IMG/VR virus record: IMGVR_UViG_3300030114_000028
Coordinates: 1-34,201 of that record
Reading direction: 5' to 3' (one strand)
From: a virus
Length of the DNA stretch: 34,201 nt
The notes under the pieces are model-generated. The model was not told the DNA's origin and made no database searches. It saw only the letters and a program-made list of their open reading frames with translations. Below are positions 10,622 through 31,812 of the stretch, one piece after another (positions within the stretch are counted from its first letter, which is position 1; each line of letters starts with the position of its first letter). The translations under genes were made by a program, and so were the position numbers.

Positions 10622-11092
10622 ATGTTAGAAGCATTTTACAATTACATGAAGCCATTCATTCTGTTTGCAATAACAGGAGTAATAGGGGCATTCAGCCCAC
10701 TACGGGATACAATAATTGTCTTAAACATTGCTTTTGCTACTAACATAGCAATGGGAGTAATAGCAGATTTTCATGTAAACAAAGCAAAATTCAACATGAA
10801 AAAATTCTGGGAAGCATTCTTACACATCACACTTTTTATCCTGTTTATTTTTATTGTAAATGAAACGACAACCCGAATGGGTGACCTTGCATCCGGTAGG
10901 TTGTGTGTAAAATGGACTACTTACATTGTCGTAACCGGTTATCTTATTAATATATTGCGAAATGCTCATGATACTTGGCCGAATAACGCTACAATTTCAT
11001 TTTTATACATGATTGTTAGCACGGAGGTAGTGACTAAGATTAAAGATATGATAGGAATAAAAAAAGAGACTGTTACACCATTTGATAAATAA
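10622..11092 (+). CDS. Phage holin, multi-spanning (Phage_holin_4-like)
   Basis: A 156-residue membrane protein with about four predicted transmembrane helices (~10-28, 30-48, 64-82, 96-113) and a charged C-terminal tail. Length, helix layout and position next to a muramidase fit the toxin-secretion/lysis holin family. It would form lesions in the inner membrane that release the endolysin at the time of lysis. The start codon is preceded by an AT-rich gap with a short CCTC/GAGG hairpin. Confidence 0.7.
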   Translation: MLEAFYNYMKPFILFAITGVIGAFSPLRDTIIVLNIAFATNIAMGVIADFHVNKAKFNMKKFWEAFLHITLFILFIFIVNETTTRMGDLASGRLCVKWTTYIVVTGYLINILRNAHDTWPNNATISFLYMIVSTEVVTKIKDMIGIKKETVTPFDK

Positions 11093-11110: not shown

Positions 11111-11524
11111 ATGGCAGACTATAGAAAAGCAATTGCAAAAGTACTTCTTATCGAGGGCGGGTACGTCAATGATAAGGACGATAACGGAGGTGAAACTTAC
11201 AAAGGTATTGCACGTAAATTTTGGCCTAAATGGTCAGGATGGGTAATTATAGATATCTGTAAAAAAGATTCAAAGAATTTTCCAAAAAACTTGAAATTAA
11301 ATCCAACTTTGAATGAACTGATCATTGGTTTTTACAAACTCAATTTTTGGGATAAAATAGGCGGTGATGGCATAAAGTCCGAATCTATTGCTTCGATCTT
11401 AGTTGATACTGCAGTTCTCGAGGGTATTAAACCGGGAGTAAGGAAAGCACAGGAAATCGTAGGGTTAGCTCAAAATGGAATTGTAGATATTAATTTAGTA
11501 ACCAAATTAAATTTATTAGCATGA
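11111..11524 (+). CDS. Endolysin, GH108 N-acetylmuramidase, catalytic part (C-terminus missing)
   Basis: I use the ATG at 11111 (137 residues); an upstream in-frame TTG at 11096 is less likely. Residues 15-33 carry the GH108 signature EGGYVNDKDDNGGETYKGI with the expected catalytic Glu15. Later, residues ~100-135 match the start of the PG_binding_3 region, ending where homologues read DGIIGPKTL. Family members normally continue some 40-60 residues, including a conserved GW-x-x-R end. Here the frame stops with an ATGA overlap, and a similar C-terminal segment appears at the end of the next gene. Substrate is peptidoglycan; there is no signal peptide, so a holin is needed for release. Confidence 0.8.
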   Translation: MADYRKAIAKVLLIEGGYVNDKDDNGGETYKGIARKFWPKWSGWVIIDICKKDSKNFPKNLKLNPTLNELIIGFYKLNFWDKIGGDGIKSESIASILVDTAVLEGIKPGVRKAQEIVGLAQNGIVDINLVTKLNLLA

Positions 11525-11796
11525 AAAAAATACTCTTATTACTGGTTTTTATACCGGTATTTTGTTTTTCGCAAATGGATGTCACTAAACAAGTAAATGA
11601 AAGCGTTCTTAGGCTTAAAGTACTTGTACTTCAGGATTCAATTGCAAGGCTAAATAACAGACCTGTTATGACAGAAAAACAATTTATAATTCTTTACAAG
11701 TACAGCCGACTTTTAAAGTACTATAAAATCTGCAAAAATAAACCCTCTCAGTGGAAATATTACAAAGGTTGGTCAACAAGAGTCTTTGAAAACTAA
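11521..11796 (+). CDS. Secreted protein with a GH108-like C-terminal tail
   Basis: This 91-residue protein starts in the ATGA overlap with the muramidase stop. Residues 1-18 are a clear Sec signal peptide ending FCFSQ. Residues 20-50 are helical. Residues about 54-91 (FIILYKYSRLLKYYKICKNK, then GWSTRV) look like the end of a GH108/PG_binding_3 protein, the part that the upstream gene lacks. It may supply the missing half to the muramidase in the periplasm, or be an independent lysis accessory that captured that tail. Reading the two as one gene would need a frameshift. Confidence 0.65.
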   Translation: MKKILLLLVFIPVFCFSQMDVTKQVNESVLRLKVLVLQDSIARLNNRPVMTEKQFIILYKYSRLLKYYKICKNKPSQWKYYKGWSTRVFEN

Positions 11797-11848: not shown

Positions 11849-12457
11849 ATGAAAAAGCTAATTTACATCCTATTTACGCTATTATTTATTATTAGTTGTT
11901 CAAGTCTTAAGAAAACTAATCAAACGTCCTTAAAAACGTCCGTGGATAGCAAAGCGAGTCTTTCAAAGGATATAAAACAATCTACTGATTCATCTTTGAC
12001 CGATAAATCGAAAACAAACAAAGAAAAGGAGATTGTAAAAACATTTGATCAGGTAAGTTCACAATCTGGAAATATAACAGGCACGCTGAAAACCTACGAT
12101 CCAACATTACCCATTGATCCAAGTACGGGCAAACATCCGTTAGTTTCTGAGTTAGATTTTACAAATAAAACGGTTTCGGATAATAAAGTAAATAATACAG
12201 AGAAAATAAATGTCAATTCCGGTATTGTAAACGATATTAAAGTAGCTGTAAAAAAGGGGTTAGATGTAAAAGTAGACAGTTCAGCAGAGGTTAAAGCAAT
12301 AGTAGATCAAAAGGTCTTAACTACAAAATCACGAACTTCGAGTTGGTGGTGGATTGCGATAATAGTAGCCGGGGGAGTTGGTGCTGGAACGTTTTTATTG
12401 AAGAAATTCCCTTTAGTAGTTATTTGGGATAAAATAAAGGGGTTATTTAAAAAGTAA
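11849..12457 (+). CDS. Candidate unimolecular spanin (lipoprotein with C-terminal membrane anchor)
   Basis: The ATG at 11849 puts a lipoprotein signal directly at the N-terminus (MKKLIYILFTLLFIISC, Cys17). A TTG at 11786 would add 21 residues before it and is unlikely. The mature chain is Ser/Thr/Lys-rich for about 145 residues. A hydrophobic helix follows at ~166-184 (WWWIAIIVAGGVGAGTF) and then a basic tail KIKGLFKK. A lipid anchor for the outer membrane plus a C-terminal inner-membrane helix is the known layout of unimolecular spanins, which fuse the two membranes in the last step of lysis. Position after holin and endolysin genes fits. Confidence 0.7.
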   Translation: MKKLIYILFTLLFIISCSSLKKTNQTSLKTSVDSKASLSKDIKQSTDSSLTDKSKTNKEKEIVKTFDQVSSQSGNITGTLKTYDPTLPIDPSTGKHPLVSELDFTNKTVSDNKVNNTEKINVNSGIVNDIKVAVKKGLDVKVDSSAEVKAIVDQKVLTTKSRTSSWWWIAIIVAGGVGAGTFLLKKFPLVVIWDKIKGLFKK

Positions 12458-18954: not shown

Positions 18955-20583
18955 TTAGTTAAACATATCTGCTAATAAATCGAGAGTACTTTCACTTACT
19001 TCATCACTTCCACCCATAACGGCGTTGGCGATTCCTTTTTTTGTTTGAATTATTTGATAAACACGTTCGTCAATTGTATTTCTACCTGAGAAATACCGTG
19101 CTGTAACACTGTCCTTCTGTCCCATACGGTGTGCCCGGTCCTCGCATTGGCAACAATCTGCATCAGTCCAGGGAAACTCAACAAACGAAACATCTGAACT
19201 GGCGGTAAGCGTTAGACCGACTCCGGCAGCTTTAATCGAGCAAATGATAATATTTGTTTTAGAACTATTTTGAAAACTATCAACGGCTCTCTGTTTTTGT
19301 TCTTGATTTTCCCTTCCTGTTACACATACGGACGATGGAAAAGCGTGTTTAAGTTGATCAACTACGATATGAAGAGAGCAAAATATAATCATCTTTTTTC
19401 CACTTAGCTGGAAGTCCTTTACGCAGTCTATAACCTCTTTTACTTTCCCTCTTGCAGTAATTTGTCTAAGTAGAGTTAACCGGACCATTGCAGCACTTTT
19501 GAGTGCATTTTTTATATTTTTATCAGTTGCTTCTTTATACTTCTTAAGATATTCTTTCAAATTATTTTCAGCGAACTGGTATTCTTCACGGTTACTAATC
19601 TCAACTGTTACAAGTTGTCGAACTTTTGCGGGCAACTCTTTTAATACTTTTGCTTTTTCCCTTCGGAACATGCAATTTTCGTAAAGCATTGCGCTCAATA
19701 CTTTCAAATTTGATGATTCGGTAGGACCGGCACAGAATTGTTTTTGAAAATTAATGGATCCACCAAAATCATTAAGCCGGCCAATGATTGAAAGTTGTGG
19801 TACCAGGTCCTTTGGTTTATTTACAATCGGGGTTCCTGTTAATCCGATTACATAATCTTTCCCTTGTGCTATTCCTTTGCAATAATTACTTTGTTGAGTA
19901 GAAGAAGATTTACAGCGGTGTATTTCATCAATAATGACCGACTTAAAAATCTTCACATTCTCCTTAAAAATCACATTTTTGAGTGAAAAATGCTCTGATT
20001 GTTTTTCATGCAATACAAAGTATTTCTTCAAAGATTCGTAATTGACTATGAAAACCTGATAAATACCCTGGTTAAAGTAATAAGGCCAATTATCACGCAT
20101 TTCATCGGTTAATATCATTGCCTTTTTATCGGTAAACTTTGACCATTCACGCTCCCAATTGATCTTTAAAGAACTTGGACAAATAATAAGACAAGGGAAT
20201 GATTGCGCTATGTTGATTGTTGCAATGCTTTGCATACTTTTTCCAAGGCCAGGCTCATCGGCATTAATGCACCTCTTTAAAACAAGTCCTCTTGCTATTC
20301 CTTTGAGTTGATAGTCGCGCGGCTTTAGCTTTAATTGATGCGGAACCAATAAATCTGGCATTTCAGACTCAATACTTTTCTTTTGCCAATCAACCGGTCC
20401 AAATCCTTTAGCACATTCAGCGTAATGTTGAAGTTGAGCTAAAGAGGAGCGGGGTACATTCCAGGTCTTTAAACTTGGAATGTATTTTGCCCCCTCAATC
20501 TTCTTTATTTCACTTGACAATCTTGGATGAAAGTCAAATTCAACAATATATAAATCCGTTGATATGTCAAGTTGTATAGTCAT
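18955..20583 (-). CDS. SNF2-family DNA translocase/helicase, paralogue 2
   Basis: A 542-residue protein. Residues 1-75 form a small N-terminal domain (KYIPSLKTWNVPRSS) of the type found before SMARCAL1-like helicases. The ATPase core has Walker A DEPGLGKS (109-116), motif II DEIH (219-222), motif III GLTGTP (247-252) and motif VI QCEDRAHRMGQ (~479-489). SNF2 enzymes move on dsDNA and remodel forks or proteins. It is read after the 213-residue gene with a one-base TAATG overlap. It is clearly related to the protein at 22401-24089. Confidence 0.9.
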   Translation of the reverse strand: MTIQLDISTDLYIVEFDFHPRLSSEIKKIEGAKYIPSLKTWNVPRSSLAQLQHYAECAKGFGPVDWQKKSIESEMPDLLVPHQLKLKPRDYQLKGIARGLVLKRCINADEPGLGKSMQSIATINIAQSFPCLIICPSSLKINWEREWSKFTDKKAMILTDEMRDNWPYYFNQGIYQVFIVNYESLKKYFVLHEKQSEHFSLKNVIFKENVKIFKSVIIDEIHRCKSSSTQQSNYCKGIAQGKDYVIGLTGTPIVNKPKDLVPQLSIIGRLNDFGGSINFQKQFCAGPTESSNLKVLSAMLYENCMFRREKAKVLKELPAKVRQLVTVEISNREEYQFAENNLKEYLKKYKEATDKNIKNALKSAAMVRLTLLRQITARGKVKEVIDCVKDFQLSGKKMIIFCSLHIVVDQLKHAFPSSVCVTGRENQEQKQRAVDSFQNSSKTNIIICSIKAAGVGLTLTASSDVSFVEFPWTDADCCQCEDRAHRMGQKDSVTARYFSGRNTIDERVYQIIQTKKGIANAVMGGSDEVSESTLDLLADMFN

Positions 20584-22400: not shown

Positions 22401-24089
22401 TTATTTTAATGAAAATAAATTTATAATTGAGTCAATAGTAGATTCTTCAGTATTATCAACAGCCCCCGTACATGCTGAACTCATTTCGCGCTTATCATTT
22501 ATAACCTGGTAAATATCTTCATCAATCGTATTTTTACCTAAGAAATAAGATATCTGTACAGCGTTTTTCTGACTAATACGGTGACAACGGTCTTCACATT
22601 GATCGGTATCGGCTGAATGCCATGGAAGCTCAATAAATGCCACGCGTGAAGCTGCTGTAAGGGTAATACCAACACCACCGGCTTTGTAGTTTACGAATAT
22701 CAAATTATGATCGGTGGGAACAAATTCATGATCAGAATTAGAATGCCTTTCATATCGAGTATCACAGACAGTACAGCGTTGGAATTTATGTATATTAGTA
22801 TTCCTTTTTTCTGAACTTTCCGAACCGGTATAAAATAATGCAGTTGGATAGTAGCTTCTTAGTACATCGGCCACCTCATTAAGATAGATGAACACGACAA
22901 TCTTTTCACCGGATTCAAGTACATCATCAATATATTCCTTCACATCAGCAAGTTTTCCACGTGCCGAAATGTTTTTAAGTACTCCTATCTGAACCATTAT
23001 TTTACCCTTCATACTTTTTGCAATCTGAGGTTCAGTTGCTTTTCGATATTCTCTCAAATAACTTTCAAGATCTGCCATTGCAGCATCGTATTCAGGTTGA
23101 TTTGAAATATTGCAAAATACCTTTTGTCGAAATTTATCAGGTAACTCTTTGAGTACATCTTTCTTTTCTCTTCTGAAATAGCATTTATTCCGGAGTATTG
23201 AATTAATTTCCGGCCAACGCTCTTCATCGGCACACATTTCACGAAATGCAACGGATCCACCAAACTCTTTCAGTTTATCAATGATCATAAGTTGAAACAT
23301 TAGATCAACCGGTTTATTTACAATCGGGGTACCGCTGAGTAACTGGGTGAACTTACCTAATGCTATCCCGTAGGATAATTTACTTTGTCGTGTTGTTTTA
23401 TCTTTTACCCTGTGACTTTCATCGATAATTACCGATTTGAAAACATTTATACTTGGAAGAAAATTAATGTGTTTAAGTAGCATTGTTTCCCCTTTTGGGG
23501 TCTCAATATTCAAAACGAAATACTTCTGTATTGATTCATAGTTGACGATAAATACATCATATACACCCATGTTATAAAATGTTTCCCAGGTGTGCTTTAT
23601 TGAATCCGTAAGTATAACCGGTTTATGATCGGAGCAAAGTTTCCATTCCATTTCCCAGTTCAATTTTAAAGAAGCCGGGCAAATAATAAGACAGGGAAAT
23701 TCATTTTTAGCTATAACCGTTGCGATGCTTTGAAGAGTCTTTCCAAGTCCAGGAGCATCCCCATTGATACAGCTACCGTGTTCAATCCCGTAAGCAATAC
23801 CTTCTTTTTGATAATCGTAAGGTTTTAGCTTAAGATCAATATTTTGATTAAGCTTTGGCATTTCAGCAGGTGCATCGAAAACACGACGTTTTGAAATCTT
23901 TCCAGTCATATCAAAAGCATATTTCTGAGCGAACATCTGAACTTCAAATTCCCAACGGCGTGGAAGTTCCCAACGCTTCAATTTCGAATCATAATTTACA
24001 TCCGGAAGTTTGGCTACAGCTGCCGATATCTTCCGATCGTAATCAAACTGAATTAAATACTTATTTTCTTTTTCAACTACTATTCTCAT
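22401..24089 (-). CDS. SNF2-family DNA translocase/helicase, paralogue 1, with zinc-site insertion
   Basis: I choose the ATG at 24089, which gives 562 residues and a 4-nt ATGA overlap with the upstream stop; the ATG at 24119 would add 10 residues deep in the previous gene. The N-terminal domain (~1-80) has NYDSKLKRWELPRR. Motifs are Walker A DAPGLGKT (111-118), motif II DESH (223-226), motif III SGTP (~252) and motif VI QCEDRCHRISQ. In the second RecA-like domain an insertion carries Cys439, Cys442, His449, His454 and His461, a possible zinc site that paralogue 2 lacks. Both proteins share long conserved stretches (LKLKP-x-DYQ, FPCLIICP-x-SLK, VFIVNYES). Confidence 0.9.
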   Translation of the reverse strand: MRIVVEKENKYLIQFDYDRKISAAVAKLPDVNYDSKLKRWELPRRWEFEVQMFAQKYAFDMTGKISKRRVFDAPAEMPKLNQNIDLKLKPYDYQKEGIAYGIEHGSCINGDAPGLGKTLQSIATVIAKNEFPCLIICPASLKLNWEMEWKLCSDHKPVILTDSIKHTWETFYNMGVYDVFIVNYESIQKYFVLNIETPKGETMLLKHINFLPSINVFKSVIIDESHRVKDKTTRQSKLSYGIALGKFTQLLSGTPIVNKPVDLMFQLMIIDKLKEFGGSVAFREMCADEERWPEINSILRNKCYFRREKKDVLKELPDKFRQKVFCNISNQPEYDAAMADLESYLREYRKATEPQIAKSMKGKIMVQIGVLKNISARGKLADVKEYIDDVLESGEKIVVFIYLNEVADVLRSYYPTALFYTGSESSEKRNTNIHKFQRCTVCDTRYERHSNSDHEFVPTDHNLIFVNYKAGGVGITLTAASRVAFIELPWHSADTDQCEDRCHRISQKNAVQISYFLGKNTIDEDIYQVINDKREMSSACTGAVDNTEESTIDSIINLFSLK

Positions 24090-24733
24090 GGTCTTCCGTT
24101 TCCAAAAAATAAATGCCATTTGTAGGCTAATTCTAAATACTTTTGTTTCCCTTCTAAGTAGAAGTCTGATTCTTTATTTATAAATATTTTGAAGACTTTG
24201 TGATTTTTCTTCGAAATTCCTATTATCACATCTCTATCAGCTCCTTCAATGTCCATATACCATGCACGTGAGCGATCGTATTGAAAGAATTTACAAGCTG
24301 CTTCAAACTGCATCTGTGTTTCGGCAGCCGTACTCTTTATATCGCCTCCCCATTTCCAGTCATCCCGCCAAATATCCCACTTACATCTCCGATCGAGTTC
24401 AAATTCAACACCATTAAAATTCATTAACGCATTGCGCTGGATACTTATTTTTTGTGCATTTGCTCCACTCATTAGGTCAGAACAGAAAGGATCCCGCCAA
24501 AAGGCTTGTTTCATTTTAATGGTATTCTCAAAAGTTGCCTTTTTATAAATCACATCTTCCCGGGTTCTTTTGAAATAATCAACCTTATAAGATTCGGTTA
24601 TCATGGCATCAAGAAGATTTCCATCGGCAAAGGCTTGTGTAGGATCCATCGGGTTTGATTTCGGATTGAGTTGGTCCAATAACCAACCCAAATCCGAATT
24701 TGATACTTCAGGACGTTTAAAATAAGCGTCCAT
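24086..24733 (-). CDS. PD-(D/E)XK exonuclease-like protein (RecE/lambda-exo type partner of RecT)
   Basis: A 215-residue protein. The C-terminal half has the nuclease pattern: CKWDIW (Asp120), WGGDIKST (Asp131, Lys133) and the QYDRSRAWYMD helix. This is the DUF3799-like/PD-(D/E)XK exonuclease group that often pairs with RecT and resects dsDNA ends to give 3' single strands. It overlaps the upstream gene by one base and the SNF2 gene by four, and RecT lies two genes upstream. Length is at the short end for the group. Confidence 0.75.
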   Translation of the reverse strand: MDAYFKRPEVSNSDLGWLLDQLNPKSNPMDPTQAFADGNLLDAMITESYKVDYFKRTREDVIYKKATFENTIKMKQAFWRDPFCSDLMSGANAQKISIQRNALMNFNGVEFELDRRCKWDIWRDDWKWGGDIKSTAAETQMQFEAACKFFQYDRSRAWYMDIEGADRDVIIGISKKNHKVFKIFINKESDFYLEGKQKYLELAYKWHLFFGNGRP

Positions 24734-29590: not shown

Positions 29591-30253
29591 ATGGAAACTA
29601 CAGTGAAACAAAGACTTATAATTTTTTTGGCCTATAAGAAAATAGGCCAAAAAACGTTTGCTTTGTCATGTAATTTATCAGGAGGCTTTGTAAATAGTAT
29701 AAGAAGCTCAATTCAACCAAAAACTATGCATGCAATTGCCATGCAATATCCGGACTTAAATTCCGGTTGGTTATTGACTGGTGAGGGTGAAATGCTTAAA
29801 GAAAAATTAACCGATAATTTATTAATAAGTGAACCTAAATTAAACTATGAAAAAAAAGGTGTTCCGTATTACGATGTTGACTTTATAGGAGGGTATGATA
29901 TGGTAATAAATGACAAGACAACAACTCCATCTTATTATATAGATTTTCAACAATATAATAAAGCTGATCACTGGGTAAATATAACCGGTCATTCAATGGA
30001 ACCACTGATCTCACATGGTGACATGATAGCTATCAGAGAGCTTCAGGATTGGAATACATACTTGTTATCCGGTGAAATATATGTTGTGGTTACGGATGAG
30101 TATAGAACCGTTAAGAAGGTGCGAAAATCAGGAAAGGGAGATGATTACATCAGACTTGTACCCCTTAACTTGGAATTTGATGAACAGGATATTCCGAAAT
30201 CAATTATAAGAAAGGTATTCCAGGTTCTTGGAACGGCAAAGAAGATATTCTAA
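29591..30253 (+). CDS. CI-like repressor with S24 (LexA-type) protease domain
   Basis: A 220-residue protein. The N-terminal ~65 residues are a divergent helix-turn-helix (QKTFALSCNLSGGFVNSIRS). Residues ~88-215 are an S24 domain with GHSMEPLISHGD (Ser135) and RTVKKVRK (Lys175 likely) as the Ser-Lys dyad. A Gly-Gly at 100-101 is a possible self-cleavage site. Such repressors hold lysogeny and cleave themselves when RecA is active on damaged DNA. It faces the Cro-like gene across a 207-nt regulatory region. Its stop overlaps the next ATG (TAATG). Confidence 0.85.
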   Translation: METTVKQRLIIFLAYKKIGQKTFALSCNLSGGFVNSIRSSIQPKTMHAIAMQYPDLNSGWLLTGEGEMLKEKLTDNLLISEPKLNYEKKGVPYYDVDFIGGYDMVINDKTTTPSYYIDFQQYNKADHWVNITGHSMEPLISHGDMIAIRELQDWNTYLLSGEIYVVVTDEYRTVKKVRKSGKGDDYIRLVPLNLEFDEQDIPKSIIRKVFQVLGTAKKIF

Positions 30254-30684: not shown

Positions 30685-31812
30685 ATGATTAATCGGAATT
30701 ATACCACACCTAAATTAAACAATTGCAAGGGCGATCTATCTAAATCCTGGTATATCTATTTTGTTTTCGAATACGAAGGAGAAAAGAAACAATTTCGAGT
30801 TAAAGATGGGATTAATTTTCTTAAGACAAAAAAAGAGCGAGAAGAATTTGCCTCCGTCTTAATTAATATATACGTCTTACGACTAAAAGAGGGATGGAAC
30901 CCATTCACCAAAGAAATAAAGGAAGAAATACCTGATATTACCATCTCTCAGGCTCTTGATGATATACTATCAGTAAAGAAGAGCTATATAACCCCCCGGT
31001 CCTATAAGACCTATAAGGATGAAATAAACCTTTTCAAGAAATGGCTTGTAATTGCCAAATTCGATAAACTATTTGTTCACAATTTTACTAATAAGCAGGC
31101 CCGGGGGTACTTCGATTGGCTACTTAAAGTAAAAAAATATTGTGGTAAAACTCACAACGGTCATTTAAGTATTCTCAGCACTTTTTTTAATTCTTTTGTT
31201 GAACGTCAGCTTATAACTGAAAGCCCTATAAAAGGAATTAAGAAAGTCAGACAGGATACTGGGAAAAACATTACTTACTCACCGGTAGAAGAACAGAAGT
31301 TCATTAAATACACTTATACAAATGATAAACCATTTTACTACGCAACCCGTTTTGTTAAATATGGGTTCTTTCGTCGTACAGAATTAGGGTTACTTCAAAT
31401 TAAACATATCAAATGGGAAAATAAAACCATTGTTATTCCTTCAGAGAACTCAAAGGGGAGGGATCAAAACAGCGTTACAATTCCGGAGTCGTTGGAAAAG
31501 ATTATTATTGAAATGAATATACTTGAGTTGGATCCGGAACTTTATATTTTTGGCGAATATTTTAAACCAAATACGGAACCTATTAAAATGATCGAGTATT
31601 TTTCTAAAACTCAACGAGAAATTAATAAACTTATCGAAGTTCCATCAAAAGGATTCTATGCGTGGAAGCATACGGGCTGTATAGAACTTTATAATATTGT
31701 AAAAGATCCTTATGTTATTATGAGGCAATGTAGACATTCAAATATTAAAGATACAATGACATATTTACGATCATTGGGTTGTGGAGTAAATGAAGAAGTT
31801 AGGAGATGGTAA
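30685..31812 (+). CDS. int: Tyrosine recombinase / phage integrase
   Basis: A 375-residue protein with an N-terminal arm-binding region, a SAM-like core-binding domain (~90-175) and a catalytic domain. Visible catalytic positions: Arg230 in GFFRRTEL, Lys257 in SENSKGR, Lys328-His329 in AWKHT (box II, Lys in place of the usual Arg, as in many Bacteroidota integrases), His351 in QCRHSN and Tyr360 in TMTYLR. It would insert and excise the phage at an att site. The upstream GTACAT clusters are candidate binding sites. Confidence 0.9.
   Translation: MINRNYTTPKLNNCKGDLSKSWYIYFVFEYEGEKKQFRVKDGINFLKTKKEREEFASVLINIYVLRLKEGWNPFTKEIKEEIPDITISQALDDILSVKKSYITPRSYKTYKDEINLFKKWLVIAKFDKLFVHNFTNKQARGYFDWLLKVKKYCGKTHNGHLSILSTFFNSFVERQLITESPIKGIKKVRQDTGKNITYSPVEEQKFIKYTYTNDKPFYYATRFVKYGFFRRTELGLLQIKHIKWENKTIVIPSENSKGRDQNSVTIPESLEKIIIEMNILELDPELYIFGEYFKPNTEPIKMIEYFSKTQREINKLIEVPSKGFYAWKHTGCIELYNIVKDPYVIMRQCRHSNIKDTMTYLRSLGCGVNEEVRRW

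Follow-up and report, generated by a model that had tools for sequence, protein, structure and literature searches.

The gene for a short GH108 muramidase and the small gene overlapping its 3′-end probably encode two subunits of one endolysin, the halves of which would meet in the periplasm. This reading is drawn from sequence comparison: the first protein (P1) represents the catalytic core, and the second (P2) combines an N-terminal export signal with the end that the core lacks. The window, that is, the whole stretch of DNA analyzed, is the 34.2 kb virus record IMGVR_UViG_3300030114_000028 (positions 1 to 34,201). Its relevant features are:

10622..11092, + strand: candidate holin, a 156 aa membrane protein with TM segments, directly upstream of P1
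11111..11524, + strand: P1, GH108 muramidase core, 137 aa (PF05838 and phrog_315 matches)
11521..11524, + strand: ATGA overlap of the P1 stop and the P2 start (sequence)
11521..11796, + strand: P2, 91 aa, whole gene (export signal, linker, GH108 tail)
11521..11571, + strand: putative P2 N-terminal export signal, ~17 residues (MKKILLLLVFIPVFCFS; hydropathy)
11572..11667, + strand: P2 linker, the length and sequence of which vary among relatives (alignment)
11668..11796, + strand: P2 C-terminal GH108 tail, residues 50-91 plus the stop codon (single-chain-tail profile, phrog_315, hhalign)
11849..12457, + strand: candidate unimolecular spanin with an N-terminal lipobox (IISC) and a TM segment near the C-terminus

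Genomic setting

Judged by its gene content, the setting of P1 and P2 is a lysis cassette, with a candidate holin gene on the 5′ side and a unimolecular-spanin-like lipoprotein gene on the 3′ side. The product of the former exhibits a weak match to Phage_holin_4_1 (Pfam; E 0.054) and a match to phrog_15037, a family of unknown function (E 1.5e-19). The latter, with TM segments at residues 2-20 and 166-184, gave a weak Rz-like spanin match (E 0.15) and no confident family match; unimolecular spanins are the only spanin type reported for Bacteroidetes phages (PMC12596118). The ATGA overlap is likely to couple the translation of P1 and P2. Elsewhere in this small phage genome, two similar helicase-like genes are found on the minus strand (18955-20583 and 22401-24119), both with DEXH-type and QCEDRxHRxxQ motifs. 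A repressor-like gene (29591-30253) and an integrase-like gene (30685-31812), read by eye, suggest a temperate phage.

The muramidase core

P1 begins with ATG at 11111 and stops at 11522-11524. Residues 9-105 match Glyco_hydro_108 (PF05838; E 3.6e-18, Pfam), and E15, G26, G27, and T29 are invariant across all 20 relatives compared; both the conserved Glu and GGxT are present. P1 retains its catalytic residues and could possess some activity alone. The protein ends where its relatives go on: the last ~42 residues of the GH108 family are absent, and P1 is without the last helices and the GW..R segment. Nor is the C-terminal PG_binding_3 domain complete on the P1 chain, the last part being located on P2 in all split loci.

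TM prediction revealed neither a TM segment nor an export signal in P1. SAR endolysins, where muramidase export and activation are also controlled, carry their signal on the catalytic chain. P1, unlike them, has no such signal, and its assignment as a SAR endolysin was rejected for want of an N-terminal signal-arrest-release segment and of any TM segment.

A further characteristic of the window-type split P1s is an altered DG..G..T peptidoglycan-contact loop (window 11471-11521 and aligned relatives). Compared with single-chain GH108 proteins the D is changed to N or T and the T to L, suggesting changed wall recognition.

The C-terminus of P2 is the missing end of GH108

P2 is composed of the N-terminal signal (MKKILLLLVFIPVFCFS-Q), a variable linker, and a conserved end. 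On phrog_315, the PHROG endolysin profile, P1 covers positions 333-438 and P2 residues 50-90 cover positions 447-486; the two proteins are thus consecutive on one endolysin profile. Together with the PF05838 core in P1, this bears out the preliminary description in its central claim of a GH108 endolysin split over two genes. The phrog_315 family is matched by 20 of 20 P2 relatives, and when the P2 profile was compared by hhalign with that of single-chain GH108 the probability was 97.5 (E 7.3e-12) across 50 columns at the C-terminus.

As a non-circular test, a profile based exclusively on C-terminal sequences from 23 single-chain GH108 proteins was used to search the 20,243 ORFs of the loci. 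The window P2 scored 36.6 bits (E 2.1e-9) against 12.7 bits (E 0.084) for the best unrelated ORF, from which we conclude that the match is not due to chance. All 108 P2 ORFs, representing 50 distinct C-termini, were recovered at E < 1e-3, each above the best other ORF. Alignment of relatives reveals 21 invariant columns in the tail, including Q77 and GW..R. The match of the window P2 and its N-terminal signal support the earlier proposal that the missing end resides on a separately exported protein.

The same proposal named PG_binding_3 (PF09374) as the family to which the end of P2 should belong, and here the outcome was mixed. The window P2 alone gave no match in Pfam, this family included, and 7 of 20 close relatives matched it weakly. 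By comparison, crAssphage gp82 (positions 28-75 of 76; 29.5 bits) and the P2s of cr3_1 (positions 33-75; 30.5 bits) and MA9V-1 (positions 40-75; 27.0 bits) all exceed the curated cut-off of 24.6. One single-chain relative, included for comparison, matches positions 10-75. Since the P2 matches start only at positions 28-40, P2 carries just the C-terminal part of the domain, and the split point, as placed by these alignments, runs through the peptidoglycan-binding domain.

The same tail region of the window P2 also matches phrog_20454, annotated as "baseplate wedge subunit" (E 4.5e-4); this family is matched near the C-terminus of its profile by the window P2 and 18 of 20 relatives (best E 1.5e-5), and some virion proteins may therefore carry a GH108 tail.

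Like o-spanin (Rz1) and the unimolecular spanins, P2s are small exported proteins or lipoproteins of a lysis cassette. Their identification as spanins was rejected: the window P2 has no clear lipobox and, in contrast to spanins, no C-terminal TM segment; many of its relatives do possess a lipobox, yet end in the GH108 tail, and a separate spanin-like gene is present at 11849-12457.

Predicted export of P2

Hydropathy analysis indicated an N-terminal hydrophobic signal, lipobox, or TM anchor in 48 of 48 distinct P2s, by a measure that ~24 % of control ORFs also pass. The signals of two P2s (L025 and L103), which apparently start at a non-ATG codon, were judged by eye, as was the cleavage site of the window P2. 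We infer that these signals work in export. Because P1 is without an export signal and P2 has an export or anchor signal, completion of the enzyme is probably possible only beyond the inner membrane.

Short cores and separate tails among relatives

Relatives were obtained from viral contig scans, one genome scan, 396 Bacteroidota genomes, and named phages. The 151 distinct GH108 cores comprise 51 short (122-151 aa) and 100 long (165 aa or more) forms. None of the short cores carries its own tail, and 50 of the 51 have a separate nearby tail gene on the same strand; for the 51st (L067) the contig end falls inside P2. A short form that is complete without the second gene, which the preliminary description had named as evidence against its interpretation, was thus not found in this collection. 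The single-gene version for which it had suggested a search is represented by the ~100 distinct long cores: the tail is found in the same ORF in 85 of the 100, and 15 gave no tail match, a few of these ORFs showing visible divergent GW..R ends. A separate tail gene was found beside none of the 100. The split loci of this collection always contain the two together, as separately translated chains from the lysis region.

In the cellular genomes of this collection single-chain GH108 is the rule; the sole short ORF belongs to the L039 genome, where the pair is present. Searching named phages by tblastn with the window P2 gave nothing useful; a crAss-like P2 as query did find matches. In a Helicobacter cinaedi prophage (L224; BK070092.1, 1501-2065) GH108 is annotated as two adjacent pieces, which from the annotation is probably a case of gene decay.

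Gene order

P2 is downstream of P1 in 34 of 48 distinct P2s and upstream in the other 14. The ATGA (-4) overlap is the commonest arrangement (28 of the 34 distinct downstream-type loci), the remaining downstream P2s being situated +4, +64, +153, or +226 nt from P1. In each of the Chryseobacterium phages MA9V-1 and MA9V-2, a short P1 gene precedes one for 222 aa, the product of which, as read in MA9V-1, ends in the GH108 tail. The upstream type includes crAss-like phages. The split pair of p-crAssphage (L118; BK010471.1, 2116-3099) is gp80 plus gp82, with gp82 (P2) upstream of gp80 (P1) and one gene between them; gp82 is likely a lipoprotein, with the C-terminal end FLRGWIRRTLDE. For cr3_1 and cr11_1, P2 is upstream of P1 and separated from it by two genes.

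The pair persists through changes of gene order, which points to a functional link and rules out a frameshifted fusion. Strict co-occurrence and the varied placement of P2, with gaps or upstream, exclude frameshifting, sequencing error, and chance adjacency. An arrangement peculiar to the window phage, such as an insertion, was rejected, as the pair is widespread among relatives.

Evolution of the split

A free tree suggested at least 3-4 changes between split and single-chain forms. Placing all 51 split forms in one clade gave a tree of higher likelihood than the free tree (AU p 0.95); since the single clade is likelier and not rejected, one old fission is the simpler reading, and several independent splits were set aside. 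One old fission followed by spread and reordering is the simplest account of these sequences, and on this phylogeny the split is an old, conserved arrangement among phages of Bacteroidota, crAssphage included. P2 could have arisen either by the tail joining an existing secreted-protein gene or by the tail gaining a signal afterwards. Since P2 is in some loci separated from P1 or located upstream, the history first envisaged, in which a gene for a secreted protein was inserted into that for the endolysin, is only one of those possible. As an event of one phage such an insertion does not agree with the same split in 51 distinct short cores, for all of which a single origin is compatible with the data (AU p 0.95).

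Substrate groove and structure models

The C-terminal domain of TtsA is a six-helix bundle with a groove lined by I116, D118, Q120, Q164, and N166, and the D118A, I116D, and N166D variants lose function in transport through the wall (PMC6996933). With residue positions counted by hand, the D118 region aligns to the end of P1, and Q164 and N166 align to P75 and Q77 of P2, the latter being invariant in 20 of 20 relatives. As these two groove residues fall in P2, P1 alone lacks part of the groove as well as the last helices. Two TtsA residues in contact with DAP, D118 and T125, correspond to N and L in the window P1; not being kept, they indicate a changed groove, and the specificity of the window P1 may have changed with it.

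The P1 and P2 of locus L035 are in one frame and, for modeling only, the stops between them were read through to give one chain. When P1 and P2 formed separate rows of the alignment, the fused model had a pTM of 0.66 and a tail pLDDT of about 70-85; with single-chain rows added these values were 0.69 and 78-91. This second model, with single-chain rows in its input, aligned end-to-end with single-chain viral lysozymes over 270 columns (TM 0.73 by the 172-residue target), and in fold searches of the AF2 models against PDB the alignments did not bridge the linker. The fused model fits the docking of P1 on P2 rather than proving it, because the single-chain rows in the alignment themselves suggest it and the PDB searches did not cross the linker.

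Comparison with known endolysins

Single-chain GH108 endolysins (PF05838 + PF09374) exhibit the same order of catalytic domain, helical domain, and GW..R as P1 and P2 placed end to end, whereas the chain of the window pair breaks off ahead of the last helices and its end is found on a separately exported protein. Solved relatives are NMB1012 (2IKB, 2IS5), Brucella SagA (7DNP), P. gingivalis PG_0293 (2NR7), TtsA (6V40), and Sen1395 (6V3Z). In one survey all the PG_binding_3 domains were on the same chain as GH108 (PMC8223927). Our searches of open-access papers yielded the pieces under separate annotations and no account of a split GH108. The same two parts occur in crAssphage (BK010471) as gp80 ("putative lysozyme") and gp82 ("putative membrane protein, contains peptidoglycan-binding domain"), and cr3_1 and cr11_1 hold like parts, the crAss-like order with P2 upstream being the reverse of that in the window. 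The crAss-like pieces are annotated separately, "secretion activator protein-like" also being among the labels, and a statement that gp80 and gp82 are halves of one enzyme was not found.

Endolysins of two polypeptides do exist. We know of none that has one domain cut in two and one of the pieces exported. PlyC is assembled from two polypeptides encoded by two genes. LysIME-EF1 likewise consists of two polypeptides, both produced from one gene (PMC7098653). In both the second chain is a whole binding domain in the same compartment, whereas in P1 and P2 one domain is cut and part of it exported; as part of PG_binding_3, P2 is not a complete binding domain.

Proposed mechanism and alternatives

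We propose that a GH108 endolysin has been divided, at the loop before the last helices, into P1 and P2. P1, possessing the catalytic domain and the first part of the peptidoglycan-binding helix bundle, would remain cytoplasmic until holin action opens the membrane. P2 would be exported by Sec as a soluble protein, lipoprotein, or membrane-anchored protein and would present the missing helices and the GW..R segment in the periplasm, where released P1 would dock on it, completing the helix bundle and the substrate groove; in many members P2 would hold the enzyme at a membrane. Docking in trans, a need for P2 in activity, and a benefit in timing or placement are what we infer from this arrangement. 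The "safety lock" on lysis put forward in the preliminary description is possible; an equally or more likely advantage is that the enzyme is positioned at a membrane. It seems to us evenly balanced whether the pair goes further and forms a compartment-gated split enzyme, an old one distributed across phages of Bacteroidota with crAssphage among them, in which neither the cytoplasmic nor the envelope half is active alone and cutting starts when the holin lets them meet.

Since single-chain enzymes contain the segment that P1 lacks, completion is the simplest role for P2. P1 might instead be a complete, active muramidase, and P2 an independent exported tether or localizer that binds peptidoglycan, has kept or gained the tail, and makes no contact with P1. 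P1 does hold the whole Glyco_hydro_108 Pfam domain with the catalytic Glu and Thr, P2 has its own signal and linker, and gp82 is annotated simply as containing a peptidoglycan-binding domain. The P2 tail, however, is only part of a helical domain, and an independent protein should sometimes go missing or join the long form, while no short P1 without P2 and no long GH108 with P2 was seen among the loci; we regard this alternative as unlikely. We give still less weight, and consider it quite improbable, that P2 binds P1 in a regulatory role, serving in the periplasm as a brake or anchor by which the muramidase is delayed or confined and not completed. Such a role would suit an exported protein that is often a lipoprotein or anchored, and lysis timing is commonly controlled; in single-chain relatives, however, the same segment belongs to the enzyme, and a brake alone leaves unexplained why P1 never keeps its own tail. 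The 4 nt overlap of the reading frames in most loci could also point to an artefact or a one-gene product, i.e., a sequencing frameshift, gene decay, or a programmed frameshift joining P1 and P2. This we consider close to inconceivable given 51 distinct and strongly conserved cores from many contigs, intergenic distances of +64, +153, and +226 nt, and an upstream P2 in crAss-like phages; any fusion, moreover, would have the signal peptide inside. Separate genes with gaps and changed order led us to reject both programmed frameshifting and gene decay.

If P1 and P2 are indeed subunits of one enzyme, this would be the first endolysin known to us to have one of its domains shared between cytoplasm and envelope, an arrangement that would either supplement holin timing with a second control or keep the enzyme attached to a membrane. 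A role would also be found for gp82, annotated as a "putative membrane protein" in crAssphage, which ranks among the most abundant viruses of the human gut. When made recombinantly, P1-type endolysins of Bacteroidota phages may show apparently little or no activity, as they lack part of the enzyme.
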